A stretch of DNA of 64,000 bases from a virus. Under the pieces are notes generated by a model. It was not told where the DNA came from. It did no database searches and saw only the letters and a program-made list of their open reading frames with translations. The stretch lies in the IMG/VR virus record IMGVR_UViG_3300042869_000672, positions 123,680 to 187,679 of that record; one strand, 5' to 3'. This document shows, one piece after another, positions 5,691 to 38,452 of the stretch. Made by a program: the position numbers and the translations under genes. Numbering within the stretch: position 1 is the stretch's first letter; the number at the start of each line of letters is the position of its first letter.

Positions 5691-5961
5691 TTGGCGTTGA
5701 TCGATAGTTGGCAAGTTTCTGTTCTAACTGAGATTTGATTTTTATCAATTCTTGTCTTAGTTCAGAAACTTCAGAATTTATTTTGCCGTTAATGAACATC
5801 TGTTCATGGCATCGATCAATGTAGATCACTGTGTTCTTGAACTCTGCAAGCAGCTTGTTCAACTCATCTTGTTTTTCAGTATCCGAAATGTCCGTGATCT
5901 TTTTTTGAAAATTAGAATAATCTTCTTTGAAACGTTGACTATTTTGTATTTTTAGCATCAT
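5659..5961 (-). CDS. Small coiled-coil-like hypothetical protein
   Basis: 100 residues rich in Lys, Glu, Gln, Ile and Leu, with heptad-like spacing in the middle (residues 15-85), suggesting a helical or coiled-coil protein. It lies downstream of and overlaps by 23 nt the Nudix-like gene, and its 3' end overlaps the convergent fibre gene by 32 nt. The position at the end of the gp14-gp15 operon suggests a virion or assembly accessory role, but no family is recognised. Two adjacent ATGs (5961 and 5958) are possible starts. Confidence 0.6.
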   Translation of the reverse strand: MMLKIQNSQRFKEDYSNFQKKITDISDTEKQDELNKLLAEFKNTVIYIDRCHEQMFINGKINSEVSELRQELIKIKSQLEQKLANYRSTPIMPELHPNAE

Positions 5962-6331
5962 TTTCTAGTACCAGTATAGTGTCAATTTTAGCTCTAATCA
6001 GCTGATTGTTCAATGTGGTCTTTAATCCACCATGTAGATTCTTAGGAAGACAATCCACGTTTGCCCAACAGATTGTGTCACTTGCATCCGTTAAGAATTC
6101 TAGATCAGTTAGACACACATATGTACCGTATTCAAATCCTCGATCTTCAGAAAGATACAGTTCAATAGGCAGTATCCTACCAACAGCATATCTAGACATC
6201 AGCTGCTCAGCATCTTCCAGCAATGTTGAATTTCTAGGAAATGTAGGCACAGTCCATTTTTGATCTTCAAGAATCAATAGAATTCTGCTAGTGTTTTTGG
6301 CAAGGAAAAGCAGTCCGGCACGTTGTTGCAT
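5939..6331 (-). CDS. Nudix-like domain protein
   Basis: 130 residues. The N terminus (G-L-L-F-L-A-K, then L-I-L-E-D and a W-x-V-P stretch followed by E-D-A-E-Q-L) follows the layout of Nudix hydrolases. The catalytic Nudix box (G-x5-E-x7-R-E-x-x-E-E) is degenerate, so hydrolase activity is doubtful. It follows gp15 with an 8-nt gap and overlaps the next gene. Small Nudix-like proteins occur beside tail genes in T4-like phages. Fold assignment is moderate; function is unknown. Confidence 0.6.
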   Translation of the reverse strand: MQQRAGLLFLAKNTSRILLILEDQKWTVPTFPRNSTLLEDAEQLMSRYAVGRILPIELYLSEDRGFEYGTYVCLTDLEFLTDASDTICWANVDCLPKNLHGGLKTTLNNQLIRAKIDTILVLENDAKNTK

Positions 6332-6338
6332 CTTGTAC

Positions 6339-7979
6339 TTATACAGGATCTAGATCAAACCTCCAGTATCCTGATGCATACTCTCCTTCGAAACTCTTCA
6401 TCCATTGACCATCACTGCCCCAACGATACTGTACCCCAGTTTTTAAATTTTGGAACAGTAGACTGATCTTGTCAAATTTATCATTGTTTTCTGGAATATC
6501 AGTGTTTTCAATCTGAGTAATATTGGCATTGGCCTTGTAGGCAACTCCATCATAGATCACAATCTGATTCACGGTATAGGCTACAAGAGCCGCAGTAGAA
6601 GGGCTAGGAGTAGATACCATCCATTCTGGCATAAGGTTAACCCAAGCTGCACCGCTCCATTCAATGATAGAATTGGCTATAATTACAGGATCGCTACCGT
6701 TGAGATTTTTCCAACCATCCGGACCATCGTAGTTGAATGTGGGATTGAATGGAGGTGTATCGACCTGTGTGCCCACGTTTGAACTGTTGTTAACGTCTTC
6801 TAACACCAAATATCGTGTGCCTGCTACCAATGGTTGGTCCGCAGTTTCTTTGTTGGGACGTTTGGGATTAAACTTGTAGGGATCTACTATGGCATCTATA
6901 GTGGTTCTACCACTGGGGTACACTGAACTCACTACTACTGTATTGGAAGGCTTGTCCTCTAGATTGACCAGCAGTAGAGTGGGGTCAATCTCGTTGACCA
7001 CAAACGTGCCGCCCAGTTCATTACCATCTGCCTGTAAGAAAAATATTTTGCTGATACCATTGATATAACCACCATACAGCGCAATAATGGCATTCCAATC
7101 AATTGGATCACCGGTTTTTGTTGGTGGCTCAAGTCCGTTAGCCAGCAAGGCTTCATTTGGCGCCACGATGGATACATCATAATCATTGGCTTGATTGTTG
7201 TTGCTTTTCAACAGTAAAATTCTAAAATTGGCCTGTGTGTTAGGAGTGCGAACGAGACTGGGTGATCCTGCATAGATCAAATCATCCAACGACAGAATAT
7301 CACCAGTATCACCAAACACATTTGCAACGATATTTCTCACCACGCCCAACTTCTTAACCTTGGTAGGCGGACTGATATAGATAGGCATTTTAAATTCTAT
7401 GCTGCAAATGTCTATGTCACTGTCTGCGCCTTGAGGGATAGTACGTGAACTAAAGTTCAATGTGGCTAGATCGATCACACTTAGACTGGTCCAGTCAATG
7501 TAGTTGTCTGTGGTTTGTATTTCCAAGCTGGGATTGAACAGCACCAAAATCTGTTCCATTAGTTGTAGCTTTTGATCAGTGTTTGAAGTCCATATATCCG
7601 CTTTCATTGACAGTTTGAAAGGAGTAGGCATGAGTCTTTCCACTGTGTACCCTGCTCCTTGATAATTTTTATAGTTAATTTCACCGTCAACACTGTCATA
7701 GGCACGTTCACTGATGTTGAGCTTGCTGACAAAACTAGCATCAGCCAGCCTAGAAGTGTCTAACTCAAGTCCTGAAATATAACAGGCAATTTTTGGCACT
7801 GTGGACATCTTGTTTTCGCTGTTGTCTTTAATTATACTGGCCACTTGTCTAGTAAGATCGCCATACATCACAGGCACATGGCGCAGAGTGTCGTCACCAG
7901 CCTTGTATTTAAATCCTATGAACACACGCATGAACTGTGTGACATATCGTCTTATCTGCCCGTCATAAAAATAGTCCAT
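6339..7979 (-). CDS. 15: Tail sheath stabiliser/completion protein (gp15), enlarged
   Basis: The first 230 residues match T4-like gp15: an N terminus beginning M-D-Y-F-Y, a V-P-V-M-Y-G-D motif, N-S-E-N, D-I-W-T-S-N and a terminal I-S-P-P-x-K-V-K-K. gp15 forms the ring that caps the sheath at the neck and joins the head and tail pathways. T4 gp15 is about 270 residues; this one is 546. The extra C-terminal half is rich in short Trp-containing repeats (such as W-S-G-A-A-W and W-G-S-D-G-Q-W) like those in the gp18 insert. The start overlaps the gp14 stop (TAATG), suggesting translational coupling. Confidence 0.88.
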   Translation of the reverse strand: MDYFYDGQIRRYVTQFMRVFIGFKYKAGDDTLRHVPVMYGDLTRQVASIIKDNSENKMSTVPKIACYISGLELDTSRLADASFVSKLNISERAYDSVDGEINYKNYQGAGYTVERLMPTPFKLSMKADIWTSNTDQKLQLMEQILVLFNPSLEIQTTDNYIDWTSLSVIDLATLNFSSRTIPQGADSDIDICSIEFKMPIYISPPTKVKKLGVVRNIVANVFGDTGDILSLDDLIYAGSPSLVRTPNTQANFRILLLKSNNNQANDYDVSIVAPNEALLANGLEPPTKTGDPIDWNAIIALYGGYINGISKIFFLQADGNELGGTFVVNEIDPTLLLVNLEDKPSNTVVVSSVYPSGRTTIDAIVDPYKFNPKRPNKETADQPLVAGTRYLVLEDVNNSSNVGTQVDTPPFNPTFNYDGPDGWKNLNGSDPVIIANSIIEWSGAAWVNLMPEWMVSTPSPSTAALVAYTVNQIVIYDGVAYKANANITQIENTDIPENNDKFDKISLLFQNLKTGVQYRWGSDGQWMKSFEGEYASGYWRFDLDPV

Positions 7980-9244
7980 TACTCGTCCGCCTTGGGTCTA
8001 AGAGCCTTGCTGAGGCTTTGTTTTTCTTTGATTGTTTTACCGTTCAACACAGCCTCTGCATTGTTATTGATAAAACTGGTTTTGTGTGTGAGTCGCACAT
8101 CCTTGTCAAGGAACACATCATTAGGAGACCCACCCGCTGCCACATCTTCGGCGCCCATGTTGCTCATGGTCATTCTAGTGACATCTTCTACTTTTACCCA
8201 ACGTGTGCCGTTGTATCGAAATAGACGCTTGGGTAAAAAATCGTTGCGTAGACAAAATTGACCGACGCTTGGCTGCAGAGGAAAACTAATGCCAGCTGAA
8301 AATGGAGCGCCGTTGGGAGGTACACCATCTCCGTCGCCAGTTCCTGGGCCATCATATTCCGGACTTTGATATATGGTGCTGGCTGTGTTGCCAACATATA
8401 TTGGATCGTTATTTTGGTCGAACAACGGATTGCCTTCGGCATCGGTGGCCTGTGTTTGGAAACTGGCCAATGACGTGGTCAAAGATGCATCAACTAATTC
8501 TACCTTACCGTCTGAATCTTTCTGAATCATGTAATGGCGAGTCGTATCGTAGCCACTCTTGGGCGCATCAGATTCTGCTTGATTCAGCACTGCCTGAGTG
8601 ATCTGCATTTCCTTTTCATAGGTGCTCATGATATCACGCAGTGATTGATCGCTACCTTCTCCAGCTGCTCCATCTAGAATTTCTTTGAATTCTTGACTGT
8701 CTACCAACGGCTTGCACTTGGCACGATATAAATGCGGGTACCAAGTCACAGAAAATCCTTCGGCTGCTCGGTTAACTTCTTCTACCACAAAGAAACGCTT
8801 CAAGGCAAATTGAAAATCATTCAGCGCATACTCGTCTTTGAGATGCGGAAGTTCTATAACATCGCCGGATATTATTTTTCTACCTAGTTTCTCCACAGTG
8901 TCATTGATATGAAATGTAATAAAAATTGTGTCATTTTGTAGGAATAAACCAAATTGACTGAGGTTGAAATCTATGTCCTGCAGACTATATACCCCTCGCA
9001 ATTGATAAATGTCAGTGTCGTATTTACGATCTCTATTTTCTAAAAATAACAGATCCTGTATGTTACTGACACTGTTGCCTACATAATTAGGTGTAGTATC
9101 TGTGGTTTCTGTACTGCTTCCAGGGCCGATGTACTTGTGAACCAGCACGTCGGTGCCGCCCACTTGAAACATTTCCCAGGCAGTTTTATCAATGAATTTA
9201 TAATCGTTGCCTTTTTCGGGCCGATATAGTGAGAGTCTTGGCAT
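7979..9244 (-). CDS. 14: Neck protein gp14-like, enlarged
   Basis: Paired with gp15 and divergent from gp13, as expected for the T4 neck gene set. The N terminus (M-P-R-L-S-L-Y-R-P-E-K) and the central D-I-D-F-N-L-S and V-E-E-V-N-R-A-A-E-G-F-S stretches fit cyanophage-type gp14. At 421 residues it is much longer than T4 gp14 (256). The extra part contains a module ending L-F-R-Y-N-G-T-R-W-V, similar to repeats in gp18. The ATG at 9244 is preferred over 9250 or 9295: the latter two would place the start at or beyond the late promoter at 9252-9263. gp14 acts with gp13 to close the packaged head. Confidence 0.78.
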   Translation of the reverse strand: MPRLSLYRPEKGNDYKFIDKTAWEMFQVGGTDVLVHKYIGPGSSTETTDTTPNYVGNSVSNIQDLLFLENRDRKYDTDIYQLRGVYSLQDIDFNLSQFGLFLQNDTIFITFHINDTVEKLGRKIISGDVIELPHLKDEYALNDFQFALKRFFVVEEVNRAAEGFSVTWYPHLYRAKCKPLVDSQEFKEILDGAAGEGSDQSLRDIMSTYEKEMQITQAVLNQAESDAPKSGYDTTRHYMIQKDSDGKVELVDASLTTSLASFQTQATDAEGNPLFDQNNDPIYVGNTASTIYQSPEYDGPGTGDGDGVPPNGAPFSAGISFPLQPSVGQFCLRNDFLPKRLFRYNGTRWVKVEDVTRMTMSNMGAEDVAAGGSPNDVFLDKDVRLTHKTSFINNNAEAVLNGKTIKEKQSLSKALRPKADE

Positions 9245-9268: not shown

Positions 9269-10027
9269 ATGAGCCAAATTGATCAATCCAAACAAGGTGT
9301 TTACGACTACTGCAAAGCTATGCTGGGCGACGGCATGATCGATGTAGAACTAGACCCTATACATTATGAAACTGCCCTAAGTCGCAGTTTGGGCGTTTTC
9401 CGCCAACGTTCAGATAATGCTGTAGAAGAAAGTTATATGTTTTTGACATTACAAGAAAATCAAAATGACTATATTCTACCCAAAGAAGTGCAACAGGTTC
9501 GACAAATCTTTCGCCGGAGCATTGGATCACGCACCGGCAACGGATCAGGCGGTACAGTATTTGAACCGTTTAACTTGGCTTACACAAACACCTATTTGTT
9601 AAGTTCTACTAACATGGGTGGCTTGCTAACCTATGAATTGTTTAGTCAGTATCAAGAACTAGTAGGTAAAATGTTCGGATCGTTTATTAATTTTAATTGG
9701 CATCCACAAAGTCGCAAGTTAACTATTCTACAACGTCCTCGTGGATTTGAAGAAATTATGATTCAGGTGTATAATACCAAACCAGATTTTGCTATCATTG
9801 ACGATACTTATGCAGGACAGTGGATCAAAGATTACACATTAGCTAACTGTAAAATGATGCTAGGTCAGGCACGTGAAAAGTTTGCTCAAATTGCAGGACC
9901 TGGAGGTGGATCAAGCCTTAACGGTGCAGCAATGAAATCAGAAGCCACTGCTGATCTAGAAAGACTAACCAAAGAACTAGAAACTCTAGTATCTGGCGGA
10001 TCTGGGTACACATTTATCATAGGCTAA
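9269..10027 (+). CDS. 13: Neck protein gp13
   Basis: 252 residues (T4 gp13 is 309). The N terminus with a Q-G-V-Y-D-Y-C-K-x-M-L-G-D-G motif followed by V-E-L-D-P-x-H-Y-E-x-A-L matches gp13 of T4-like marine phages, as does the Y-I-L-P-K-E-V-Q-Q-V stretch. gp13 binds the portal vertex after packaging and with gp14 forms the neck. The ATG has no Shine-Dalgarno site and lies 5 nt after a TATAAATA late element, so a leaderless transcript is predicted. Unusually, gp13 and gp14 are divergently transcribed here. Confidence 0.9.
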   Translation: MSQIDQSKQGVYDYCKAMLGDGMIDVELDPIHYETALSRSLGVFRQRSDNAVEESYMFLTLQENQNDYILPKEVQQVRQIFRRSIGSRTGNGSGGTVFEPFNLAYTNTYLLSSTNMGGLLTYELFSQYQELVGKMFGSFINFNWHPQSRKLTILQRPRGFEEIMIQVYNTKPDFAIIDDTYAGQWIKDYTLANCKMMLGQAREKFAQIAGPGGGSSLNGAAMKSEATADLERLTKELETLVSGGSGYTFIIG

Positions 10028-10031
10028 TGTC

Positions 10032-10060
10032 TTGACCTTGTGCTAATTCTATAGTATAAT
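10032..10060 (+). promoter_or_regulatory. Sigma70 promoter for dNMP kinase
   Basis: TTGACC at 10032-10037, a 17-nt spacer and TATAAT at 10055-10060. A TAGGAG ribosome-binding site lies between it and the ATG at 10079. Confidence 0.85.
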
Positions 10061-10078
10061 TGCTTATAGGAGACAATT

Positions 10079-10735
10079 ATGATTATTGGAATTTGCGGGT
10101 TTATCGGTTCAGGCAAGGACACAGTGGCTGACTATCTAGTCAACTTCCACGAATTTAGACGAGAATCATTTGCCAGCACACTTAAAGATGCTGTTGCCGC
10201 AGTGTTCGGGTGGGATCGTACCATGCTAGAAGGTCGTACTAAACAGGCTCGAGAGTGGCGTGAACAAGTAGACCCGTGGTGGGCAGAACGTTTAGATATG
10301 CCAACGCTAACTCCACGCTGGGTATTACAATACTGGGGTACTGAAGTTTGCCGCAAAGCCTTTCATGACGATATCTGGATTGCCTCCCTAGAAAATAAAA
10401 TTCGAAATTCACGAGACCATGTGGTTATTTCAGATTGCCGCTTCCCTAACGAAATACAGGCCATAAAAAATGCAGGCGGCAAGATCTATTGGGTACAACG
10501 TGGTGATCTACCAGAATGGTATGATGATGCTGTGTTGGCTAACAGTGGTAGCAATGTAGGATTAAACAGCATGAAGATGAAAAAAATTCATGCTAGTGAG
10601 TGGGCGTGGATCGGTTGTGAATTTGACGCTGTTCTTGACAACAACGGATCGATAGACGAACTATACAATAGATCAGAAAGCCTAGTAATCGGCGACAAGA
10701 TCTCCCTGCCGCCAGATAATACCGTCCTTGCTTAA
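10079..10735 (+). CDS. 1: Deoxynucleoside monophosphate kinase (T4 gp1-like)
   Basis: 218 residues with an N-terminal P-loop G-F-I-G-S-G-K-D-T (residues 7-15), then the gp1-type core with W-V-L-Q-Y-W-G-T-E and a D-C-R-F-P-N-E motif. The family phosphorylates dNMPs to dNDPs for phage DNA synthesis in the cytoplasm. It has its own sigma70 promoter and a strong ribosome-binding site, so it is expected early, although it sits among late genes. The 3' end overlaps the convergent HNH-like gene by 54 nt. Confidence 0.9.
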   Translation: MIIGICGFIGSGKDTVADYLVNFHEFRRESFASTLKDAVAAVFGWDRTMLEGRTKQAREWREQVDPWWAERLDMPTLTPRWVLQYWGTEVCRKAFHDDIWIASLENKIRNSRDHVVISDCRFPNEIQAIKNAGGKIYWVQRGDLPEWYDDAVLANSGSNVGLNSMKMKKIHASEWAWIGCEFDAVLDNNGSIDELYNRSESLVIGDKISLPPDNTVLA

Positions 10736-16351: not shown

Positions 16352-16717
16352 ATGCCAAGTTTACCAAATTCTCTTCAGCAAGATAGTGCTGCTGGAACAA
16401 AATTATTTTTTGATCGTTACGGCGAACGAACTTTGGAATTTGGAGCCAACGAAGTCGGTGCTGCTATTGCTTTTTTCCAAAGTCGTGGATTTGAAAACGA
16501 AGCGGCTCTTATCACAGCACAGGTTTTATTGAATCAAGCCAAACTCGACGACGTTCCGGTGTTTAAAATCATCGACACTCTCAAGAATTTTAATGGCGTT
16601 CAAATTAGTGCTCTGGTGGCTGAGATTCTAAACAACAATAGAAATGCCACAAGTTCACTGGGTTATCGCACTGACTTAATAGAAAAACAAAATCAAACTA
16701 GAAATATTTTTGCCTAA
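16352..16717 (+). CDS. Conserved small structural protein
   Basis: 121 residues. It resembles a small protein found in the tail gene cluster of marine T4-like phages, with a F-F-Q-S-R-G-F-E-N-E-A-A-L core, V-L-L-N-Q-A-K-x-D-x-V-x-V-F, and a helix with L-V-A-E-I-L-N-N-N-R. It is probably a small tail or baseplate assembly factor. It sits 1 nt after the tube-like gene and its stop overlaps the gp4 start, so it is part of a tightly coupled operon. Confidence 0.68.
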   Translation: MPSLPNSLQQDSAAGTKLFFDRYGERTLEFGANEVGAAIAFFQSRGFENEAALITAQVLLNQAKLDDVPVFKIIDTLKNFNGVQISALVAEILNNNRNATSSLGYRTDLIEKQNQTRNIFA

Positions 16718-17157
16718 TGCCAAAGTTTGCTCAAGGTCGATTTGAAATGAAAAATGTCGACAAATATGTTGGCAAAAAAACACCATTGGCTCGAAGTTCG
16801 TGGGAATTTATTTTTATGAAGATGTTGGACGAACATCCGGGTGTTGAAAAGTGGGCCAGCGAAAGCATACAAATTCCCTACAGAGATCCGTTAACCGGCA
16901 AGTATACAATATATGTTCCTGATTTTTTTATCACTTATGTGGATAAAAATGGGAAAAAACATGCAGAAGTTGTAGAAGTTAAACCAGCTAGTCAAACGTT
17001 TATAGAACAGGTGGGAAAGAGTCAGTACAATCAACAGCAGTATGTTAAAAATATGGCCAAATGGGAAGCTGCCGCAGCCTGGTGCAAACAGCAAGGTGTC
17101 AAGTTCCGCATAGTCAACGAAGGCGATATTTTTCATCAAGGCTCAAAACGCAGATAA
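16717..17157 (+). CDS. 4: Head completion nuclease-like protein gp4
   Basis: 146 residues, matching T4 gp4 (about 150). It has a TnsA/PD-(D/E)xK-like arrangement: E30 in S-S-W-E, D69 in V-P-D-F, then E87-x-K89 in V-V-E-V-K. gp4 joins late in head maturation after packaging and is needed for tail attachment. It overlaps the preceding gene by 1 nt and precedes the small terminase gene by 7 nt. Confidence 0.88.
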   Translation: MPKFAQGRFEMKNVDKYVGKKTPLARSSWEFIFMKMLDEHPGVEKWASESIQIPYRDPLTGKYTIYVPDFFITYVDKNGKKHAEVVEVKPASQTFIEQVGKSQYNQQQYVKNMAKWEAAAAWCKQQGVKFRIVNEGDIFHQGSKRR

Positions 17158-17164: not shown

Positions 17165-17647
17165 ATGACGAAAAAACTTGAAGAACTGTTTAATCTAGAA
17201 GAATCTAAACCTGCAAAGGAAACAGCCCCTGTTGAACCCAAAATAGATCACACAGAAGTTCGCAGTTTAGATGACAGCTATAAAGCGGTGGCTGAGATTA
17301 CTCGCAGTTTACCACAAGTAAAAGAACTAGACGAACTTAATGATCACGAACTAGACAATCTAGCATCAAAAGCTGAACAGGCCTATGACGACCTAATGGA
17401 TTTAGGAATGAATGTAGAAGTTCGTTATAGCAGTCGTATTTTTGAAGTGGCCAGCTCAATGTTAGGCCATGCAATTACAGCTAAGTCTAATAAAATTGAG
17501 AAAAAACTCAAGGCTATTGACATGCAAATGAAGAAATACAAAATTGACAAAGATAACAACGAAGACCCAAATGATGTTATTAACGGGCAAGGATATGTGA
17601 TCACTGACCGCAACGAGCTGATCAAGAAACTGGGCGGAAAAGCATAA
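17165..17647 (+). CDS. 16: Small terminase subunit gp16
   Basis: 160 residues (T4 gp16 is 164). An acidic N-terminal linker is followed by a helical core with L-A-S-K-A-E-Q-A-Y-D-D-L-M-D-L-G and S-S-M-L-G-H-A-I-T-A-K, typical of T4-like small terminase, which forms the ring that recognises DNA and stimulates the large subunit. It lies directly after gp4; its 3' end overlaps the next late promoter. Confidence 0.88.
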   Translation: MTKKLEELFNLEESKPAKETAPVEPKIDHTEVRSLDDSYKAVAEITRSLPQVKELDELNDHELDNLASKAEQAYDDLMDLGMNVEVRYSSRIFEVASSMLGHAITAKSNKIEKKLKAIDMQMKKYKIDKDNNEDPNDVINGQGYVITDRNELIKKLGGKA

Positions 17648-17650
17648 ATA
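17643..17650 (+). promoter_or_regulatory. Late promoter, 5 nt from ATG
   Basis: CATAAATA ends at 17650 and overlaps the gp16 stop codon. The spacer CTACT leads straight to the ATG at 17656. Confidence 0.78.
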
Positions 17651-17655: not shown

Positions 17656-18216
17656 ATGAAAACTTTCAAAGAATATCTTGCCGAAGGCAAAAAATCATAC
17701 AGCTTTAAAATTAAAGTTGCCGGTGATCTGCCCGAAGATTTCCAATCAAACTTAAAAACGTCCCTAGAAAGATGCAAAGTTATGAAAATGGAAAAACTCA
17801 GCACAACACCAATCCAAGCAGTTCCTATGGATTTTCCAACTATGAAAAACTGTGAAGTTCACGTTTTTGAAGTTGCTTGTGAATATCCTATTACTTCGCC
17901 TGAAATCAGCAGTGATATCAAGAGTATGGGTCTAGACGAAGCTAGTTTTAGAGTAAGAGGAAGCAACGAATCTTCTGAAACTGATCAAGGTGAAATAGAA
18001 ATTTTAAACACTGACGGGCTGTTAACTGACAGTCAGTATAAAGAAGGTACCAATGTCAAGCACAAAGATTTCTTTGGCGATGACTTTAACAAGAGTTTTT
18101 TAAAAGATTTAAGCAAAGTTGCTAAACAACAAAAGAAAGACAACGGTCAGACAGAATATAAACTGCCCAAGGCCAAAATTGATAAGACCGGCGTAAAAAG
18201 CGCCCTAGGGAGTTAA
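17656..18216 (+). CDS. Putative internal virion protein with capsid-targeting N terminus
   Basis: 186 residues of unknown family. The N terminus M-K-T-F-K-E-Y-L-A-E-G closely resembles the T4 capsid-targeting sequence (M-K-T-Y-Q-E-F-I-A-E) that directs internal proteins into the prohead and is removed by the gp21 protease after the Glu. The rest is Lys-rich and soluble. The late promoter with leaderless ATG and the position beside the terminase genes fit a late head protein. The inference is that it is packaged and cleaved after residue 10. Confidence 0.7.
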   Translation: MKTFKEYLAEGKKSYSFKIKVAGDLPEDFQSNLKTSLERCKVMKMEKLSTTPIQAVPMDFPTMKNCEVHVFEVACEYPITSPEISSDIKSMGLDEASFRVRGSNESSETDQGEIEILNTDGLLTDSQYKEGTNVKHKDFFGDDFNKSFLKDLSKVAKQQKKDNGQTEYKLPKAKIDKTGVKSALGS

Positions 18217-18217: not shown

Positions 18218-19162
18218 ATGAATTTCAATGAATTGATGTCTAAAATGCGCGAGCTGGATGCTCCTGTCGCTCCATTGGGGGCGGTTGAGGCCTGTGGCGA
18301 TCCAATGGGCATGCCCCCGCCGAGTATTCCTAGCAAGCCCGATGAACCTCCCCCAAGCATGAGTTTGAACCTCAATGCACAGGGCATGGACAACATTGCT
18401 GAATTAATGAAGTTGATGACCAAAGTCAATCCAGACATGATCAATCAACCAGCACCAATGAGCATGCCTCCAATGAGTGCCGAACCAAGCATCATGAGTA
18501 TCAAGCCTCCAATGCCAGGCATTGGAGATCTAGGAAATCTAGATTCAGGACCATTAAAAATGTTGCCTGACCTAGACAAAGACGAACCACACAGTGAGCC
18601 TGATGCAGATAATAGAGGCGGTCCTAGTGACATGGATGCAGACAATATGCCTCCAATGGGTGACCTAGATCGTGACGATAAAGGCATTGACTCTATTCAA
18701 AAGTCTATGGGCGACCGAGACGGTGACGGCGATCATGACATGGATGATCATGACATGGAAAAAGACGGCAAAGAAGGCGACAAGAAAGACAAAGAAGAAG
18801 CATTCGGTAATGCACCGGAAGGCGCATCTGGACAAGAATATCATGGCATAGATGCTGCTATTCCAGACGGCGACGACTTGAACAAGCCAAAGAAAAGTTT
18901 TAGCGGTAAACCATATCGTGGCGACAATCCTATGGCTGCCGGCGCTTACGAAAGCAAAGAACAACTACGTGCCAGCATCAAGGAAGAATTACGTAGACGT
19001 TTATCAGAAGCAAAAAGTGAAAAGTTTGATCCACTAAAACATGTTAAGAATCCAACACAGGGTGAGAAGAATGCAGCACCCGATGTTAATCGTGAAAAAT
19101 ATGGCGATCGGGCAGCAATATTAAGATCCGCCGAAAAAGACGGTCGCTTAAAGACTACGTGA
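18218..19162 (+). CDS. Acidic Pro/Met/Asp-rich head-assembly-like protein
   Basis: 314 residues of low complexity: a Pro/Met-rich first half (repeated P-M-x-M-P-P), a strongly acidic Asp-rich centre (D-G-D-G-D-H-D-M-D-D-H-D-M), and a basic helical tail with R-A-S-I-K-E-E-L-R-R-R-L-S-E-A-K. It begins 1 nt after the preceding gene and ends before a terminator. Its composition is similar to scaffolding or prohead core proteins (T4 gp67/gp68/gp22 types), but no family is recognised. The N terminus M-N-F-N-E-L may be another targeting-type leader. Confidence 0.6.
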   Translation: MNFNELMSKMRELDAPVAPLGAVEACGDPMGMPPPSIPSKPDEPPPSMSLNLNAQGMDNIAELMKLMTKVNPDMINQPAPMSMPPMSAEPSIMSIKPPMPGIGDLGNLDSGPLKMLPDLDKDEPHSEPDADNRGGPSDMDADNMPPMGDLDRDDKGIDSIQKSMGDRDGDGDHDMDDHDMEKDGKEGDKKDKEEAFGNAPEGASGQEYHGIDAAIPDGDDLNKPKKSFSGKPYRGDNPMAAGAYESKEQLRASIKEELRRRLSEAKSEKFDPLKHVKNPTQGEKNAAPDVNREKYGDRAAILRSAEKDGRLKTT

Positions 19163-19218: not shown

Positions 19219-20805
19219 ATGGCAAAATCACTAGACGGTAATTTAATTAAGAAAGCTCATGCACCTCAACGATATACTCTTGAGGAAGTCAAGCATCTTG
19301 AAGCATGTATGGATCCTGTCACTGGTCCGCTGTATTTTTGTAAAAACTTTTTAAAGATTCAGCACCCTGTACGTGGATCAATTCCGTTTGCACCTTACGA
19401 ATATCAAGAAAGACTAATAGATGCCTATCACAACAACAAACAGTGTATTGCCATGCTGCCACGACAGATGGGTAAGACCACCTGTGCCACAGGATACTTG
19501 TTATGGTACACAATGTTTGTGCCAGAAGCACAGGTTTTAATTGCTGCTCACAAATACGAAGGTGCGCAGGACATTATGAATCGTTATCGATTCGGTTACG
19601 AAAACCTGCCAGATTTTATTCGTGCAGGTGTGTATAGCTACAATAGAAACACCATTGAGTATGACAACGGAGCTCGTATACAGGCAGTGACAACTACAGA
19701 AAATACAGGTCGTGGTAAATCTCTTTCACTGATCTATTGCGATGAGTTTGCGTTTGTGCAGCCTCCAGAAAAAGCCAAAGAATTCTGGACTGCACTGTCA
19801 CCAACATTATCAACAGGCGGTAAATGTATTATTACATCAACACCAAACAGTGACGAAGATCAGTTTGCGTTAATTTGGACTGAGGCTAACAAGCGATTCG
19901 ATGAGCATGGGAATGAACAGCAATTAGGTATGAATGGATTCCACAGTTTCTTTGCACACTGGGCAGAACATCCAGATCGTGATGAGAAGTGGGCTCAGAC
20001 AGAACGTGCAAAGATTGGTGAAGAGCGTTTCCGTCGTGAATTTGATTGCGAATTCTTGATCTTTGACGAAACGCTAATCAATGCTGTGCGACTGGCAGAA
20101 ATGAAAGGTGTTGACCCTATCATGACCATGGGGCAAACACGTTTTTATAAAGACATTGACCCAAGAGCAACTTATCTAGTTTCCCTAGATCCTTCATTAG
20201 GCACTGGTGGGGACTATGGTGCCATACAGGTGTTTGAAATGCCCAGTATGGAACAGGTAGCAGAATGGCGACATAATCTAACTCCTATTCAAGCACAGGT
20301 TAAACACCTAAGAGAAATTTGCAAGTACATTCAAGACCGAGGACTAGAAAAGGGCGGTATTCCGCAACTTTATTACAGTGTTGAAAACAATACACTAGGC
20401 GAAGCTGCTCTTATTGTTATTAGTAATCTAGGAGAAGAAAACTTCCCAGGATTATTCCTTTCTGAGCCTATGCGTAAGGGTCATGTACGTAAATTTAGAA
20501 AAGGATTTAACACAACACACAAGACAAAAATCACTGCTTGTAGTCAGGTTAAACACATGTTAGAAACACAAAAAATGAAGATTTACTCTAAACCTCTAAT
20601 ATCTGAGCTTAAAACATTTGTGGCACACGGAGTGGGATTTGGCGCTAAAACAGGCGAACACGACGACCTAGTAAGTGCCATGCTGTTAATAATACGTATG
20701 GCTGGAGTATTATCAGATTGGGATCCCAAGATCTACGAAAAGATGACAGAAAAATTAAGCGAAGATCAAATGCCCATGCCGATATTTGTCTCTAGCGGTT
20801 TTTGA
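19219..20805 (+). CDS. 17: Large terminase subunit gp17
   Basis: 528 residues. The ATPase has a Walker A P-R-Q-M-G-K-T-T at 81-88 and a Walker B L-I-Y-C-D-E-F near 172-178. The RNase H-like nuclease has S-L-D-P-S-L-G-T-G-G-D near 322-332 and a late H-D-D-L-V-S-A. It translocates DNA into the prohead and cuts concatemers. T4 gp17 is 610 residues; the shorter length is normal for marine relatives. The start lacks a Shine-Dalgarno site and sits 5 nt after a late element. The 3' end carries the late promoter of the next gene. Confidence 0.96.
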   Translation: MAKSLDGNLIKKAHAPQRYTLEEVKHLEACMDPVTGPLYFCKNFLKIQHPVRGSIPFAPYEYQERLIDAYHNNKQCIAMLPRQMGKTTCATGYLLWYTMFVPEAQVLIAAHKYEGAQDIMNRYRFGYENLPDFIRAGVYSYNRNTIEYDNGARIQAVTTTENTGRGKSLSLIYCDEFAFVQPPEKAKEFWTALSPTLSTGGKCIITSTPNSDEDQFALIWTEANKRFDEHGNEQQLGMNGFHSFFAHWAEHPDRDEKWAQTERAKIGEERFRREFDCEFLIFDETLINAVRLAEMKGVDPIMTMGQTRFYKDIDPRATYLVSLDPSLGTGGDYGAIQVFEMPSMEQVAEWRHNLTPIQAQVKHLREICKYIQDRGLEKGGIPQLYYSVENNTLGEAALIVISNLGEENFPGLFLSEPMRKGHVRKFRKGFNTTHKTKITACSQVKHMLETQKMKIYSKPLISELKTFVAHGVGFGAKTGEHDDLVSAMLLIIRMAGVLSDWDPKIYEKMTEKLSEDQMPMPIFVSSGF

Positions 20806-26040: not shown

Positions 26041-26496
26041 ATGAATTGGTATGACAGGGTTAGCAAAGATATAAGCAACATTCCCGATGCTGTGGCCTAT
26101 TATGAAGCTGAGTTAATCGAAGCAAAACAAGATGTCCGCATAGCGGGAAACATCGAGAAGGCAAGTTCGCAGATGCCCGGCATTGTGGAAGAACGCTTTA
26201 ATCAACTTCAAGAAATTGAAGGTATCCTTGAGTACTTAAACATTGAACTTCGTAGACTTCGCAGTCAACACTTTCGCAAATATCTCGAAAACTACCAACG
26301 TCAACTAAGCTCTAGAGACTGTGAAAAGTTTGTAGAAGGTGAAGCTGACGTGGTAGATTTTGAAAAAATTATCAACGATTTTGCCCTACTTAGAAACAAG
26401 TGGTTGGGCATTATTAAAGCACTCGATCAGAAACAATGGCATCTCAGCAACATTGTTAAATTACGAGTGTCGGGATTAGAAGACGCATCATTATGA
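26041..26496 (+). CDS. uvsY: UvsY recombination mediator
   Basis: 151 residues (T4 UvsY is 137), all-helical and highly charged. Its segments I-P-D-A-V-A-Y-Y-E-A-E-L, M-P-G-I-V-E-E-R-F-N-Q-L-Q-E-I-E and R-R-L-R-S-Q-H-F-R-K-Y fit UvsY of T4-like marine phages. UvsY loads UvsX on gp32-covered ssDNA. Its 4-nt overlap with the following epimerase marks the point where the carbohydrate block is joined to the recombination operon. Confidence 0.85.
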   Translation: MNWYDRVSKDISNIPDAVAYYEAELIEAKQDVRIAGNIEKASSQMPGIVEERFNQLQEIEGILEYLNIELRRLRSQHFRKYLENYQRQLSSRDCEKFVEGEADVVDFEKIINDFALLRNKWLGIIKALDQKQWHLSNIVKLRVSGLEDASL

Positions 26497-27458
26497 ACAT
26501 CTTAGTAACTGGCGGCCAAGGACTTATCGGACACAATGTAGTAAGTAAATTAGAAACACAAGGACATAGTGTTGTAGTTGCCGATACTCAAACTAATTAT
26601 GGAATTATCCCACAGCCAGAACTCGTTTACCTATTATCTGAACGTTCTAAAAAAATAAAATCAAGCGAAGTTTATCTTATAGATATATGCGATCCAATTG
26701 GCATGAATCAGTTATTTTCAAAATATAATTTTGATATTGTAATTCATCTTGCTAGTTTTCCAAGACAAAAAGTAGTTAATGCTAACCCAGCACTTGGCTC
26801 ACGTACTATGAGTGAAGGACTGCTTAATCTATTAGAACTAAGTGTAAAGTATAATGTAAAGAGATTTGTTTACACGAGCTCTAGTATGGTCTACGGTGAT
26901 TTTACAGATTTTGTTAAAGAAGATGCAGTATGCCGTCCGCAAGGACAATACGGCATTATGAAACTTGCAGGTGAGTGGTTAATTAAAGACTACACACGTA
27001 AGTATGGAATAGAACATACAATATTTCGTCCAAGTGCAGTGTATGGCCCGCTTGATGTTGAAGACCGCGTTATTAGCAAATTTTTGTTAACTGCCATGCG
27101 AGGAGGCGTTCTCAAAGTAAACGGCGTTAATGAAACTCTAGACTTTACCTATGTGGACGATGCGGCCGACGGAATTGTAGCAGCTTCTCTTGCAAAAAAT
27201 ACTGCAAATAAAACTTACAACATAACCAAAAGTCATAGTAAGACACTGTTGTCTGCTGCTGAATTAGCAGTTAGCCTAGCAGGTAAAGGCACAGTCGAAG
27301 TCAAGGAAAAGGATGCGGATTTTCCTAGTCGCGGTGCATTAGACATTACCGCAGCACGTCGAGATTTTGGGTTTGATCCTAAAGTTGATATCGACGAAGG
27401 ATTTGAAATATATTATCGCTGGATTAAAAATTCAGAATACTGGAAGAAAAATTTATGA
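26493..27458 (+). CDS. NAD-dependent epimerase/dehydratase (extended SDR)
   Basis: 321 residues. Rossmann motif T-G-G-Q-G-L-I-G at residues 6-13, V-Y-T-S-S-S-M-V-Y-G, then the catalytic Y-G-I-M-K, and substrate motifs R-P-S-A-V-Y-G-P. The family includes UDP-glucose 4-epimerases and GDP-sugar epimerase/reductases. It opens the carbohydrate block and may act on the product of the dehydratases encoded at 30320 and 36956; the substrate cannot be told from sequence. It overlaps uvsY by 4 nt and the next gene by 4 nt. Confidence 0.88.
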   Translation: MNILVTGGQGLIGHNVVSKLETQGHSVVVADTQTNYGIIPQPELVYLLSERSKKIKSSEVYLIDICDPIGMNQLFSKYNFDIVIHLASFPRQKVVNANPALGSRTMSEGLLNLLELSVKYNVKRFVYTSSSMVYGDFTDFVKEDAVCRPQGQYGIMKLAGEWLIKDYTRKYGIEHTIFRPSAVYGPLDVEDRVISKFLLTAMRGGVLKVNGVNETLDFTYVDDAADGIVAASLAKNTANKTYNITKSHSKTLLSAAELAVSLAGKGTVEVKEKDADFPSRGALDITAARRDFGFDPKVDIDEGFEIYYRWIKNSEYWKKNL

Positions 27459-28141
27459 TTCCAAAAATAATACATCATGTTTGGCCAGGTGATGATCCTT
27501 TTAGAGAAAAGTTTCATGCTTGGAGAGAAAGTTGGATGCGACTGCACCCAGACTGGACTTTTTATTTTTGGAGAACTTCTAATCTACCTGAAAATATAAA
27601 TTCTTTGGCAAAACAAATATTGTTAAATCCATCGTATGCAATCACTCCTAAATCCGATGTACTGAGATTTGAAGTATTACGAATATACGGAGGAATTTAT
27701 GTCGACACTGATATGGAATGTCTACGTCCGTTTGACGAATTTTTAAATCTTGATATGTTCACTGGATTTGAAGATGATTATAGAAGAGTATGCCCAAGTT
27801 TAATAGGCTGTGTTTCGGATCACCATCTGTTAACTGAAATGTCTAACGTTAGTGTTTCTAGAGCAATAAAATATGGACCTGAAGTTTCTAACGAAAGACC
27901 TCATGTTATCACTAGCGTAAAACCTTTTACAAAAATAATGCAAAAATACTTTAATGACGAGGATTTTGCACAAAGAAAAGTTGAAGACGAAAAAGTTAAA
28001 ATATTTTCTAAAGATTATTTTTACCCTGTATATTTTAACGAAAAGCATCGCCTTACCGAAGAAGCTCCAAATTCTTATGCCAAGCACCATTGGACAGGCA
28101 ACGATCCCGATGGATGGACAAAAAATCCTAAGTTTCTGTAG
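27455..28141 (+). CDS. GT32-type glycosyltransferase
   Basis: 228 residues. It has the OCH1/GT32 layout: I-P-K-I-I-H-H-V-W near the start, H-P-D-W near residue 33, a K-S-D-V-L-R-F-E-V-L helix and the DxD motif in G-G-I-Y-V-D-T-D-M. Such enzymes transfer a hexose to surface glycans. It overlaps the preceding epimerase by 4 nt and its 3' end overlaps the convergent gene by 14 nt. Base composition here is more AT-rich than in the core genes. Confidence 0.85.
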   Translation: MIPKIIHHVWPGDDPFREKFHAWRESWMRLHPDWTFYFWRTSNLPENINSLAKQILLNPSYAITPKSDVLRFEVLRIYGGIYVDTDMECLRPFDEFLNLDMFTGFEDDYRRVCPSLIGCVSDHHLLTEMSNVSVSRAIKYGPEVSNERPHVITSVKPFTKIMQKYFNDEDFAQRKVEDEKVKIFSKDYFYPVYFNEKHRLTEEAPNSYAKHHWTGNDPDGWTKNPKFL

Positions 28142-28907
28142 TCCAGTATGGAAATTTAAAAATTACATCGGATACTGGCTTAGGATATTTGTAATCCACA
28201 TATTGTGTTTCGCATTTGTGATTAATAGCTAATTTAGTATCTTGTTTTTTAAGTGCATCGAGTACTTCGTTCGGATCTCGATACTGCGATTCTATACAAC
28301 TTTCAACTTTACTTTTTATTCGATTGTCGTTGCCAATCCATGTCCAGTGCCAGCCTACTATATCGGGATGTCTAACACAATGACTTCTATTTTTTTTCTT
28401 GTATTGATCACCCTTGTATAATTCTTGAGGAGTGTTGAACATGCATTTTTTAGCAACAACTGGTCCACTCCATGTCCTGTATAATTTTTGATCAAATTTA
28501 AAGATGAACATATCTAACGTGCAATTTACTGGTTTATTTTCTTTTTCTAATAAATCTAAAATAGACTGTATCTTTTCAGGGTCTAATATTTCATCTAGAT
28601 CTGAGTGAATTACAGTATCGTTTGCATCACATAGGTCAATTCCAGATTGCAAAGATGCTCTACTAAAATTTTCGCATTTCCAATCTTTGTAATCGGCCGG
28701 AATATCTAAATTTATTAACTGTATTTTGTTATTGTATTTTTGTTGATATTCGTCTATTCTAGCAGCCAAGTGGTACGGTTTTTCTTTCCCGCTCCATGTC
28801 CGATTGCCTTCTAAAATAATCCACTTATCTACATAGTTGTTTGAAATGTCTAATCTGATATCTAACATTTCAAACTCGTCGTTAAACATAAAAGTATCAA
28901 TAATCAT
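28128..28907 (-). CDS. GT17-like glycosyltransferase
   Basis: 259 residues. The N terminus (D-T-F-M-F-N-D-E-F-E-M-L-D-I-R-L) and the following L-E-G-N-R-T-W-S-G-K-E-K-P match the beta-1,4-N-acetylglucosaminyltransferase GT17 family, with S-D-L-D-E-I as the likely nucleotide-sugar and metal site. It is part of a two-gene minus-strand unit with the methyltransferase 2 nt upstream, transcribed from a late element at 29552. Confidence 0.82.
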   Translation of the reverse strand: MIIDTFMFNDEFEMLDIRLDISNNYVDKWIILEGNRTWSGKEKPYHLAARIDEYQQKYNNKIQLINLDIPADYKDWKCENFSRASLQSGIDLCDANDTVIHSDLDEILDPEKIQSILDLLEKENKPVNCTLDMFIFKFDQKLYRTWSGPVVAKKCMFNTPQELYKGDQYKKKNRSHCVRHPDIVGWHWTWIGNDNRIKSKVESCIESQYRDPNEVLDALKKQDTKLAINHKCETQYVDYKYPKPVSDVIFKFPYWTTET

Positions 28908-28909
28908 TT

Positions 28910-29545
28910 TTAAAATTTATAAATTACTTGATGAGCATCATAAATGGGGAATTTATTTTTTTTCTCTAAATATTCTATGATAAGTCTTCCTTTGCCAGTC
29001 CGTCTTTTAGAATCTTCAAAGGTTGAATTATCGTCAATAGCAACAATAGCACCTGGCTTTAAAAATCTTTCTATTTCTAAAAACTCATTGAGATGATGGG
29101 TGGCGCTACCCAAGTCGTTGTTCCATTTAACGTTCATACTATCTAGATAGAATAAATCAACCAAATTTAAATCTGGTTGATCCCTGAGCCACATAACACT
29201 GTCTGCACAATAAGATTGATGATATTTTTTATCTATGTATTGATTGGCTGATTCTACAGCTTCTAAATCAATATCAACCGACCTAACAAATCCACCGTGA
29301 AATTTTACAAAATCTGCAAAAATAAAGCCACTGTTCCCATCCTTCCAATTATTTGGTTTTCTTGTTGATCCAGTTTCTATAATTAAGAAATTATTAGGTT
29401 TTATCGAAAGAAGTTCTTTAAAAACAATCTCAAATCCGTTGCCTCGGTGATACAATCCTGGCGTTAGTCCTCGTTTAGAAAAGCTAACATTTACGTCTAA
29501 ATGAGGTTTAAAAATATTTTGATAATGCGAGATCCATGTGTTCAT
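28910..29545 (-). CDS. SAM-dependent methyltransferase-like protein
   Basis: 211 residues. Rossmann features: an I-I-E-T-G-S motif near residue 55, an acidic strand end V-R-S-V-D-I-D near 90, and L-F-Y-L-D-S-M followed by P-G-A-I-V-A-I-D-D, typical of class I methyltransferases of the sugar or FkbM-like type. It probably methylates a glycan or sugar precursor. Its ATG lies 6 nt after a late element and lacks a Shine-Dalgarno site. Confidence 0.75.
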   Translation of the reverse strand: MNTWISHYQNIFKPHLDVNVSFSKRGLTPGLYHRGNGFEIVFKELLSIKPNNFLIIETGSTRKPNNWKDGNSGFIFADFVKFHGGFVRSVDIDLEAVESANQYIDKKYHQSYCADSVMWLRDQPDLNLVDLFYLDSMNVKWNNDLGSATHHLNEFLEIERFLKPGAIVAIDDNSTFEDSKRRTGKGRLIIEYLEKKNKFPIYDAHQVIYKF

Positions 29546-29551
29546 ATAGAA

Positions 29552-29559
29552 TATTTAGC
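29552..29559 (-). promoter_or_regulatory. Late promoter, 6 nt from ATG
   Basis: GCTAAATA on the minus strand; its partner on the plus strand is 15 bp away, forming a divergent pair inside the sugar block. Confidence 0.65.
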
Positions 29560-29574
29560 ATCATTAACTGCTCT

Positions 29575-29582
29575 GATAAATA
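29575..29582 (+). promoter_or_regulatory. Late promoter, 6 nt from ATG
   Basis: GATAAATA, then TTCGAT, then the ATG at 29589; no ribosome-binding site. Confidence 0.68.
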
Positions 29583-29588
29583 TTCGAT

Positions 29589-30317
29589 ATGAATAAAACG
29601 ATTTTAATTTCTTCTATCTTCAGAAATTCTGAAAAAAAGTTAAACCGATATCATGAGCAATTAAAAACTTTAGTTTTAGGATTTCCTGATATTAAATTCC
29701 TGCTCTCTATTTACGAAAACGATTCGTCAGACCATACTAAAGATATTTTACATTCTTTAGACTGGTCGTTTGTTTCTGAAAAATCTATAATAACAGAAAA
29801 TATAGGAACTGACTTTTACGGGTCAGTAGTTGACGAGCAACGGGTAAAAAATTTAGCAAGCGCAAGAAATAAAACACTCGATGTTGGAGATTTTTTAAAT
29901 AAATCCAATTATGTTCTTTCAATAGAATCTGACATACAGTACGATTTAGAATGTGCTCAACGAATTATAAATTTTGAATCTGACTACGGAATTGAAGCCG
30001 ATATTGTATCAGCTGTTAGTTGCAAACCTAGTAAATATGACAGAAAACGGTTATATGACCTTTGGGGGACTCGAAGAACTCCAGATGAAGAGTGGGGTAG
30101 TATTGATAACGGTACAGATTATAAAGAATATTATGCTACCTACAACTGTTTTTGTTTTTACAAATCAGAACCAATAAAAAAGGGAGCAAAATTTGGATGG
30201 TATAACAATCGATTAAAAAAGTTTGATTGTGATACAATGGTCATTTGTGAAAATTTTAGAGACATCGGCCATAACAAAATTTATATAAATCACCTTGCCA
30301 ATTGCTGGCATATTTAA
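29589..30317 (+). CDS. CAP59/GT69-like glycosyltransferase
   Basis: 242 residues. A-S-A-R-N-K near residue 95, V-L-S-I-E-S-D as the metal-binding strand near 118, and a late N-H-L-A-N-C-W-H are typical of the CAP59-type alpha-mannosyltransferase-like family. It likely extends a surface polysaccharide. It heads a plus-strand run of co-oriented genes continuing through 36151, with gaps or overlaps of only a few nt. Confidence 0.75.
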   Translation: MNKTILISSIFRNSEKKLNRYHEQLKTLVLGFPDIKFLLSIYENDSSDHTKDILHSLDWSFVSEKSIITENIGTDFYGSVVDEQRVKNLASARNKTLDVGDFLNKSNYVLSIESDIQYDLECAQRIINFESDYGIEADIVSAVSCKPSKYDRKRLYDLWGTRRTPDEEWGSIDNGTDYKEYYATYNCFCFYKSEPIKKGAKFGWYNNRLKKFDCDTMVICENFRDIGHNKIYINHLANCWHI

Positions 30318-30319
30318 CT

Positions 30320-31492
30320 ATGAAAAAATACACCTGGCCCTTAATGAAAGACACAATAACATTTTTAGATAAACTAAAAATGATAAATTTTATTCTTAGA
30401 TCAAATAAATTTACAAACGGTAATCAAGTCAAACAATTTGAAAAAGAATGGAGTGAATGGTTGAATGTAGACCACAGTCTTTTTGTATCGTCTGGTAGTA
30501 CTGCCAATTTATTACTACTGTCTGCTGTAAAAGAAAAGTTCGGATTAAAAGATCAAGACAAAATTGTTGTGCCTGCCTGCACTTGGGTCACAAACATATC
30601 CCCAGTTATACAATGCGGACTACAACCTATTTTTTGTGATATTAATTTTGAAAACTACAGTTTTGATCTTGACCACCTTAAAAAAATCTCGTTAGAGCAT
30701 CCAGATATAAAAGGAATATTTGTAACTCACTTGTTGGGGTTTGATGCAAACATAGAAAAAATTAAAGAAATAATTCCCAGTGCGTTGATCTTAGAAGATG
30801 TATGCGAATCACACGGTGTTACAGATAGCATTGGGAATAAAAGAGGATCTTCTTCTTTAGGAGCTACATTTAGTTTTTATTTCGGACATCATATGACAAC
30901 CATAGAAGGCGGCATGGTGTCTACGACTAACGAAGAGCTGCATGAACTAATGAGGCTGAAAAGAAGTCACGGATTAGCTAGAGAAGGTTCTCCTGCGTAT
31001 TTTGAAAAATATAAAAAAGAATATCCAGATTTGCCTCCAAGTTTTCTTTTTTTAACAGAGGGCTACAATTTTAGAAATCATGAAATTCCAGCAGTATTAG
31101 GGCAAAGTCAACTAAAACGACTAACCAATATGGTAGATATTCGAAAAAACAACTTTATAAAATATTTTAATATAATAAAGAATTACGAAGATAAGTTTTA
31201 CCTTCCGGAATTTAATGATACAAATAGTAGTTTTGCATTCCCGTTTGTGTCCAAATCTAAAAACACACACCTGCATCTTATTGAGGCTTTCACGAAATTC
31301 AATATCGAACATCGTCCAATAGTTAGCGGAAATTTACTCGCCCATCCATTTTTAAAAGAATATAAGTTAGAGCCCGGGAGTAAAAATAATGTTAATCTTT
31401 TACACAATAATGGAGTGTATATTGGCAATAATCATTTTGTAAATCAACAAGATTTCGATGTATTAACTATAATTTTAGAGAGTATAAAATGA
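30320..31492 (+). CDS. ColD/RfbH-like PLP sugar 3-dehydratase
   Basis: 390 residues of the DegT/DnrJ/EryC1/StrS fold with G-S-T-A-N near 59-63, P-A-C-T-W near 85-89 and the PLP-binding Asp in I-L-E-D-V-C-E-S-H. The usual catalytic lysine is replaced: the motif reads S-F-Y-F-G-H190-H191-M-T-T. This His-for-Lys change is the signature of ColD and RfbH, which remove the C3 hydroxyl rather than transaminate. ColD acts on GDP-4-keto-6-deoxymannose, the product of the GMD encoded at 36956. The ATG at 30320 is preferred over an in-frame TTG at 30302 inside the previous gene. Confidence 0.88.
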   Translation: MKKYTWPLMKDTITFLDKLKMINFILRSNKFTNGNQVKQFEKEWSEWLNVDHSLFVSSGSTANLLLLSAVKEKFGLKDQDKIVVPACTWVTNISPVIQCGLQPIFCDINFENYSFDLDHLKKISLEHPDIKGIFVTHLLGFDANIEKIKEIIPSALILEDVCESHGVTDSIGNKRGSSSLGATFSFYFGHHMTTIEGGMVSTTNEELHELMRLKRSHGLAREGSPAYFEKYKKEYPDLPPSFLFLTEGYNFRNHEIPAVLGQSQLKRLTNMVDIRKNNFIKYFNIIKNYEDKFYLPEFNDTNSSFAFPFVSKSKNTHLHLIEAFTKFNIEHRPIVSGNLLAHPFLKEYKLEPGSKNNVNLLHNNGVYIGNNHFVNQQDFDVLTIILESIK

Positions 31493-32256
31493 AAACAATA
31501 GTAATTGCAACAGGTGGTTTTGACCCTATTCATTCAGGTCATATTAACTATATCAAAGAGGCTAAAAAATTAGGCGATGTTTTAATCATAGGAGCAAACT
31601 CCGATGCCTGGTTGCGCCGCAAGAAAGGGCAAGAGTTTATGCCATGGGACGAACGTGCTAGTATTCTAAGTGCTATCAAAGATGTAGATCGTGTTATTAA
31701 CTTTGACGACGCAGACGGTAGTGCAAAAGACGCTATTAGAAAAGTAAGATCAATATACCCCAACGATAAAATTGTATTCGCCAACGGCGGTGATCGTACT
31801 AAAACTAATATTCCTGAAATGGATGTACTAGACGAAATGTTGCATTTAGAATTTGTTTTTGGTGTAGGCGGTGAACACAAAATGAATTCCAGTTCGTGGA
31901 TATTACAAGAATGGAAAGCGCCTAAGACTGAACGACAGTGGGGCTACTATCGTGTACTGCATGAAGTTCCTGGAATGAAAGTTAAAGAGCTCACTGTGGA
32001 GCCCGGAAAGAGCCTAAGTATGCAACGCCACCAACTACGTGCTGAGTATTGGATGGTTAGTGAAGGCCAGTGTATAGTTAACAGCATGATGCCTAACGGG
32101 TATCGATTGCTACCTGCAGAATTAATTAAGCACCAAGAATATAAAATTCCGGTTGCCGAGTGGCATCAATTAACAAACCCTTATGATGTACCTTGCAAGA
32201 TTGTCGAAATACAATACGGGCAAAGCTGTATTGAAGAGGACATTGAAAGAGTATGA
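31489..32256 (+). CDS. Cytidylyltransferase-cupin fusion
   Basis: 255 residues. The N-terminal 130 residues are a cytidylyltransferase-like nucleotidyltransferase: G-G-F-D-P-I-H-S-G-H holds the HxGH motif. The C-terminal 115 residues are a cupin of the mannose-6-phosphate isomerase type II kind (S-L-S-M-Q-R-H, A-E-Y-W-M-V, E-W-H-Q-L-T-N). Fusing activation and isomerisation domains suggests a compact sugar or polyol nucleotide synthesis step. It overlaps both neighbours by 4 nt. Confidence 0.87.
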   Translation: MKTIVIATGGFDPIHSGHINYIKEAKKLGDVLIIGANSDAWLRRKKGQEFMPWDERASILSAIKDVDRVINFDDADGSAKDAIRKVRSIYPNDKIVFANGGDRTKTNIPEMDVLDEMLHLEFVFGVGGEHKMNSSSWILQEWKAPKTERQWGYYRVLHEVPGMKVKELTVEPGKSLSMQRHQLRAEYWMVSEGQCIVNSMMPNGYRLLPAELIKHQEYKIPVAEWHQLTNPYDVPCKIVEIQYGQSCIEEDIERV

Positions 32257-37969: not shown

Positions 37970-37996
37970 ATTTTTCCTAGTTTCGATAAGGTGAAT

Positions 37997-38004
37997 TATT
38001 TATG
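37997..38004 (-). promoter_or_regulatory. Late promoter for gmd operon
   Basis: CATAAATA on the minus strand with a 27-nt leader that includes TAGGAAA before the gmd ATG. Confidence 0.6.
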
Positions 38005-38023
38005 AGATATTTTCAATGCTAGG

Positions 38024-38416: not shown

Positions 38417-38424
38417 AGATATTG

Positions 38425-38446
38425 ATTAAATACACATATATTTATT
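38425..38446. promoter_or_regulatory. Divergent late promoter pair
   Basis: ATTAAATA (38425-38432) faces the plus-strand gene at 38453. AATAAATA on the minus strand (38439-38446) faces the gene starting at 38416. Both leaders are about 20 nt. Confidence 0.55.
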
Positions 38447-38452
38447 TGACTG

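Follow-up and report, generated by a model that had tools for sequence, protein, structure and literature searches.

The window analyzed here is a 64,000-nucleotide stretch of DNA from an environmental, T4-related bacteriophage and spans positions 123680–187679 of a 187,679-base virus record. Within it, the open reading frame that we call ORF X (17656..18216, plus strand) encodes a protein of 186 aa with the N-terminus MKTFKEYLAEGKKSYSFKIKVAG; the start M-K-T-F-K-E-Y-L-A-E-G reported in the earlier note can be read directly from this frame. We found no second copy of ORF X across the whole record. The genes around it occur in the order tail tube, second tube, a 121-aa ORF, gp4-like, gp16-like, ORF X, a 314-aa ORF, and gp17. 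Using profile searches, we matched the gp4-like head-closure protein (16717..17157, plus strand, 146 aa) to phrog_218 (head closure, E=3e-37), the small-terminase-like (gp16-like) upstream neighbor (17165..17647, plus strand, 160 aa) to phrog_445 (terminase small subunit, E=2e-4), and the large terminase (gp17-like; 19219..20805, plus strand, 528 aa) to phrog_36964 (E=4e-116). The downstream neighbor, Y (18218..19162, plus strand, 314 aa), is acidic, rich in proline and methionine, and syntenic in most relatives; the profile search returned no family match for it. This protein and another acidic low-complexity protein, at contig positions 9450–10436, have similar N-termini, MNFNELMSKMRELDAP and MDFKSLLNKLDSMEAP, which may represent another type of head-targeting sequence. 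Farther along the window, positions 26493–41972 hold a block of ORFs that, judged by eye, resemble sugar epimerase, dehydratase, cytidylyltransferase, and glycosyltransferase genes.

Just 5' of the ORF X start codon lies a T4-type late-promoter-like octamer, CATAAATA (17643..17650, plus strand), which overlaps the stop codon of the upstream gene. ATAAATA is kept before ORF X in 62 of 86 relatives. Of the 34 copies of ATAAATA, 28 lie ≤60 nt upstream of a same-strand ORF start, compared with 8 of 34 for the reverse complement. The NATAAATA late-promoter motif is known in cyanophages (PMC2984593), and late-promoter-like octamers of this type precede many genes throughout the window and across the contig. 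Several of them are only 4–7 nt before the ATG, a spacing at which a T4-type start site would yield a nearly leaderless mRNA.

The first ten residues of the ORF X product, MKTFKEYLAE (17656..17685, plus strand), form a capsid-targeting-type propeptide with a predicted cleavage after Glu10, between 17685 and 17686. Compared with the T4 sequence MKTYQEFIAE, they are in the same register, with 6 of 10 residues identical and with Y4F, F7Y, and I8L as conservative differences. We used BLOSUM62 to score residues 2–10 against MKTYQEFIAE; ORF X scored 33, and the second-best score among the 197 N-termini in the record was 10. Among the 58,096 internal 10-mers from all predicted proteins of the phage, none reached 33 (maximum, 32), and the ORF X score was reached by none of 200,000 column-shuffled N-termini. 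The profile of phrog_2667 (internal head protein) matches ORF X residues 1–37 (E = 4e-4) and also matches 29 of 44 ORF X homologues; the ORF X match vanishes once residues 1–10 are deleted. A coincidental resemblance, in which a small structural domain simply starts with an amphipathic helix of the ordinary kind, would fit the observation that hydrophobic-x-E (hhxE-type) N-termini are generally not enriched in the genome (11 of 197, or 5.6%, vs 4.5% internally); the case for a tag therefore rests on this specific tag. Nevertheless, we regard coincidence as very improbable given the outlying score and, as described below, the site-specific conservation, the identity of the motif with the putative capsid maturation site, and the occurrence of the tag on many unrelated proteins against a near-empty permuted control.

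Our first set of homologues was gathered with MKTFKEYL as one of the search words, so tag conservation within that set was discounted. The repeat alignment begins at residue 15 and thus leaves out residues 1–14; the upstream DNA was then read in 79 of the 80 loci of the repeat set, as one locus is cut. Met1, Lys2, Tyr7, and Glu10 are each present in 79/79 relatives; residue 8 is Leu or Ile in 79/79, and residue 4 is Phe or Leu in 79/79. Residue 9 varies among Ala, Thr, Ser, and Val, and position 11 holds Ser, Asn, or Gly. In T4 IPIII, residues 4 and 7 carry targeting, whereas residues 8 and 10 carry processing, and gp21 cleaves after L/I-x-E (PMC9026906). ORF X has the targeting positions, as F4 and Y7, and a gp21-type site, LAE, at residues 8–10. 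The fixed and free positions of the tag thus coincide with the determinants in T4 IPIII and, at the level of sequence, are those that a gp21 substrate should show, namely L/I-x-E followed by a small residue. Tags of this kind are already known, and a review has proposed the tag as a general means of protein loading (PMC9026906). The assignment of a T4-type capsid-targeting tag made in the earlier note is borne out by the score, the phrog_2667 match, and the conservation of Tyr7 and Glu10.

The same record encodes a gp21-type protease (Peptidase_S77, PF03420; contig 91138–91578, 84 bits) and a Gp23 capsid protein (PF07068, 320 bits). Based on motif and position, the boundary of the capsid propeptide in this phage would be TRKYLAE/SATAGAT (the slash marks the putative cleavage site, here and below), and the corresponding putative boundaries are TKRFLVE/NASAGAT in Pseudomonas phage PA5oct, PLME/NATAGAT in Atu_ph07, and PLME/TATAGAT in Phosso. 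Separate from its main capsid gene, Phosso (PV764938.1, 182280–182546) also has a 228-aa open frame with another Gp23-like match, which is partial. The EYLAE/G of ORF X nearly repeats the phage's own putative capsid site, KYLAE/S. Cleavage of the tag after Glu10 is likely on these grounds. Still, Phe4 and Tyr7 are present but Glu10 has been lost in the PA5oct homologue (MKSFRDYYDAS) and the Phosso homologue (MKNFYEYLSSV), even though the capsid sites of both phages retain their Glu. The cleavage claimed in the earlier note is thus backed by the L/I-x-E site, the S77 protease, and the matching capsid site, but these two homologues lack Glu10 and it remains a prediction. An Asp10 variant of T4 IPIII is targeted, yet uncut there (PMC9026906); by T4 rules, the PA5oct and Phosso homologues would likewise be targeted and uncut at residue 10. 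Of the two functions, targeting may be the more widespread, with cleavage specific to lineages such as the clade of ORF X.

The same two homologues bear on a further alternative, namely, that ORF X encodes a neck, portal, or packaging-machine protein that acts alongside gp4, gp16, and gp17, with its N-terminal helix serving as an uncleaved assembly contact. The PA5oct and Phosso sequences, with F4 and Y7 and without the cleavage Glu, would suit such a contact, as would the fixed slot between the gp4/gp16-like genes and the gp17 gene. On the other hand, the invariance of Glu10 and of Leu/Ile8 within the clade while residue 9 varies is hard to explain without a protease, and an internal-head-protein profile matches via the tag; we therefore consider an uncleaved packaging-machine component quite improbable, albeit less so than coincidence.

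The predicted mature protein comprises residues 11–186 (17686..18213, plus strand), as deduced from the putative capsid maturation site of this phage together with the L/I-x-E rule. The phrog_14802 profile (virion structural protein) matches ORF X residues 1–168 with E=2.5e-7, and the match persists without the tag (E=1e-5); all 44 of the 44 ORF X homologues scanned match phrog_14802. Based on this profile match, we describe ORF X (17656..18216, plus strand) as a candidate internal/virion head protein. One homologue, PA5oct EST35_0202, is annotated as "structural protein," with a note of ESI-MS/MS. The virion evidence thus comes from a distant homologue only, with 30% identity over 61% of ORF X and an annotation from ESI-MS/MS. 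The PA5oct virion annotation comes from a protein that is expected to be uncut at residue 10, and the term "virion protein" does not prove an interior location. Because the virion-annotated PA5oct homologue has no Glu10, cleavage is not required for presence in the virion. Packaging of the ORF X product into the head, as the earlier note proposed, is well supported as a prediction from sequence by the tag, the protease, the capsid site, and the virion-annotated homologue.

AlphaFold2 modeled ORF X with a mean pLDDT of 67.5 and a pTM of 0.47. The model has a short helix at residues 4–10 (low confidence; pLDDT of 56 for residues 1–10), a domain at residues 15–102, a disordered linker, and a C-terminal helix; pLDDT is about 71–89 over residues 11–100 and 80–89 for most of the domain. 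Based on the AlphaFold2 secondary structure, the domain is ferredoxin-like, with a beta-alpha-beta-beta-alpha-beta order (17698..17961, plus strand), and conservation and the model together mark a C-terminal helical segment at residues 136–162 (18061..18141, plus strand). Fold searches returned a generic ferredoxin-like/ribosomal protein S6 resemblance (E about 1e-3 or weaker, modest TM), and we set aside any function drawn from it, as the resemblance is not specific. Among the matches in the viral structure library, a weak one to the internal protein Ip7 from Escherichia phage MX01 (rank 14, E=3.8e-3, TM 0.25–0.40) was likewise not relied on; the others were uncharacterized homologues. ORF X had no sequence relative in the PDB and no Pfam match, and profile searches found no convincing enzymatic, nuclease, or defense family match.

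The synteny of ORF X is kept in ~150 environmental loci, where the gene occupies a fixed slot between the small and large terminase genes, and the recognizable members of the neighborhood are in the same order in PA5oct. In its rate of divergence, ORF X is close to the tail tube proteins and the 121-aa ORF; gp4 and gp17 change more slowly, and the 314-aa neighbor changes faster in most bins. These data can be weighed against a role as an ejected host-takeover or counter-defense protein, one that is packaged, cleaved, injected with the DNA, and active on a host target early, like T4 IPI or Alt. In T4, tags of this class are carried by internal proteins, and two of these, Alt and IPI, have roles in the host (PMC9026906); related tags in other environmental phages are found on S-AdoMet-lyase-like, acetyltransferase, nuclease-like, and nucleotidyltransferase proteins. 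However, the single head/terminase-module slot in ~150 loci and PA5oct, the rate of divergence, and the lack of a family match noted above argue against an ejected effector, which we regard as unlikely, although it is the least unlikely of the alternatives. Because of the fixed slot and the divergence rate, a role in head assembly or a general internal role is favored over a fast-changing, host-directed one. The earlier note had the protein ejected with the DNA and acting in the first seconds of infection; the conservation and synteny of ORF X do not favor this.

We scanned viral contigs for the pattern M-K-T-[F/Y]-x-[E/Q]-F-[aliphatic]-x-E, which excludes the Tyr7 of the ORF X clade. This T4-like tag occurred in at least 86 ORFs at at least 80 loci, with 84 of those listed being ≥50 aa long. 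Among the matches listed, the tagged ORFs start a median of 6.5 codons past the previous in-frame stop, and nearly all are true gene starts; Ala or Ser follows the tag Glu in 58 of 86, and the mature parts fall into at least 51 unrelated groups. A control pattern made by permuting the same codons was found at 3 places, none of them a convincing gene or gene start. For 67 tagged proteins from the matches listed, family matches included the S-AdoMet lyase family (7), DUF6321 (3), cytidylyltransferase (2), GNAT acetyltransferase (1), and HNH (1), and others were to families of internal head or virion proteins. Two of the tagged proteins listed belong to phrog_14802 and have Phe at residue 7, as in T4 (loci L206 and L249). 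An S77 protease was found in 8 of 20 tag-bearing records, which are mostly partial, and in 5 of the 7 of those over 100 kb (raw count). Proteins of the S-AdoMet-lyase family (PF23780) with the T4-like tag occur at L208 (235–756), at L226 (1441–2151), and at similar loci, with membership confirmed for L208 and L226; a tagged protein of this family suggests an anti-restriction-type enzyme packaged in the head.

Since a similar tag occurs on at least 51 groups of unrelated mature parts, it may work apart from the domain that it precedes. We put at about even the chance that environmental T4-related phages widely use the tag as an exchangeable cargo signal on unrelated proteins, enzymes included; the head would then carry a diverse payload, with ORF X as one conserved passenger. 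In the literature searched, we found no description of this breadth across unrelated proteins, and one may exist.

Weaker tag-like N-termini occur elsewhere in the same phage, at positions 5394–6575, 8057–8395, 8392–8949 (locus L082), and 81775–82683 (locus L086, 5775–6683) of contig G000. They include a cytidylyltransferase (MKLLELFE/QSGKTAAVAFGR), a basic protein (MKAKEFIIE/RKK), a DUF6321 protein (MKLYEILTE/GVAG), and a further protein (MKISELLVE/SQQ). The cytidylyltransferase and DUF6321 families are also found among the tagged environmental proteins. We treat these weaker tags as suggestions only, because hydrophobic-x-E N-termini are not enriched in the genome.

Compared with T4 IPI, IPII, and IPIII, ORF X has a ten-residue tag in the same register, with aromatic residues at positions 4 and 7, an aliphatic residue at position 8, and Glu10, and its phage likewise encodes a gp21 S77 protease. 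The mature part, however, is unrelated to theirs by sequence, as phrog_2667 matches through the tag only. Descent from the IPI/IPII/IPIII family was rejected, given the loss of this match without residues 1–10 and the lack of a PDB sequence match. A further difference from T4 is that ORF X is conserved and syntenic within the head/terminase module; to our knowledge, no gene stands at its position in T4. PA5oct EST35_0202 (phrog_14802) shares both the domain and the gene neighborhood of ORF X, whereas the PA5oct and Phosso members of this family differ in having F4 and Y7 without the cleavage Glu. Agrobacterium phage Atu_ph07 gp113 and Sinorhizobium phage Phosso ORF 408, both uncharacterized, have a homologous domain encoded upstream of the large terminase gene; they differ from ORF X in their 22–25% identity and in having ribonucleotide reductase genes nearby. 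The annotation of gp113 uses a downstream start and thus omits the tag MKTLQDYLTE; the upstream frame reads MKTLQDYLTESKK. At positions 10001–10087 of the Atu_ph07 locus (L091; NC_042013.1), the annotated gene leaves out the upstream in-frame MKTLQDYLTESKKCYTYHVKF, and the gp113 start looks misannotated.

Taken together, the product of ORF X is probably a conserved head protein whose tag takes it into the prohead core and is then removed by a gp21-type protease that cuts after Glu10, with 176 residues staying in or on the head; we hold this reading with good confidence. Its observed basis is the tag, the site-specific conservation, the protease gene, the capsid motif, the synteny, and the virion annotation of a homologue. 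The late-promoter-like octamer ahead of ORF X and the low pLDDT of residues 1–10 relative to the domain also speak for it. In the mechanism that we propose, the N-terminal capsid-targeting peptide (residues 1–10) would bring the product into the prohead core, where the Phe4/Tyr7 face of the short helix may dock on a core or scaffold protein. The phage's gp21-type S77 protease would then cut after Glu10 during head maturation, leaving the 176-residue product inside, or attached to, the mature head. The mature domain would most likely act in head morphogenesis or have some generic function inside the head; a role as a host-specific effector is less likely.

With this reading, an unnamed conserved head protein of a large group of environmental phages gains a testable route of assembly, and the T4 targeting system is connected with a published virion protein, PA5oct EST35_0202. 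Should other phages read the tag in the same manner, N-terminal sequence alone would list the likely protein cargo of T4-related heads, and that cargo would include possible counter-restriction enzymes delivered with the genome.
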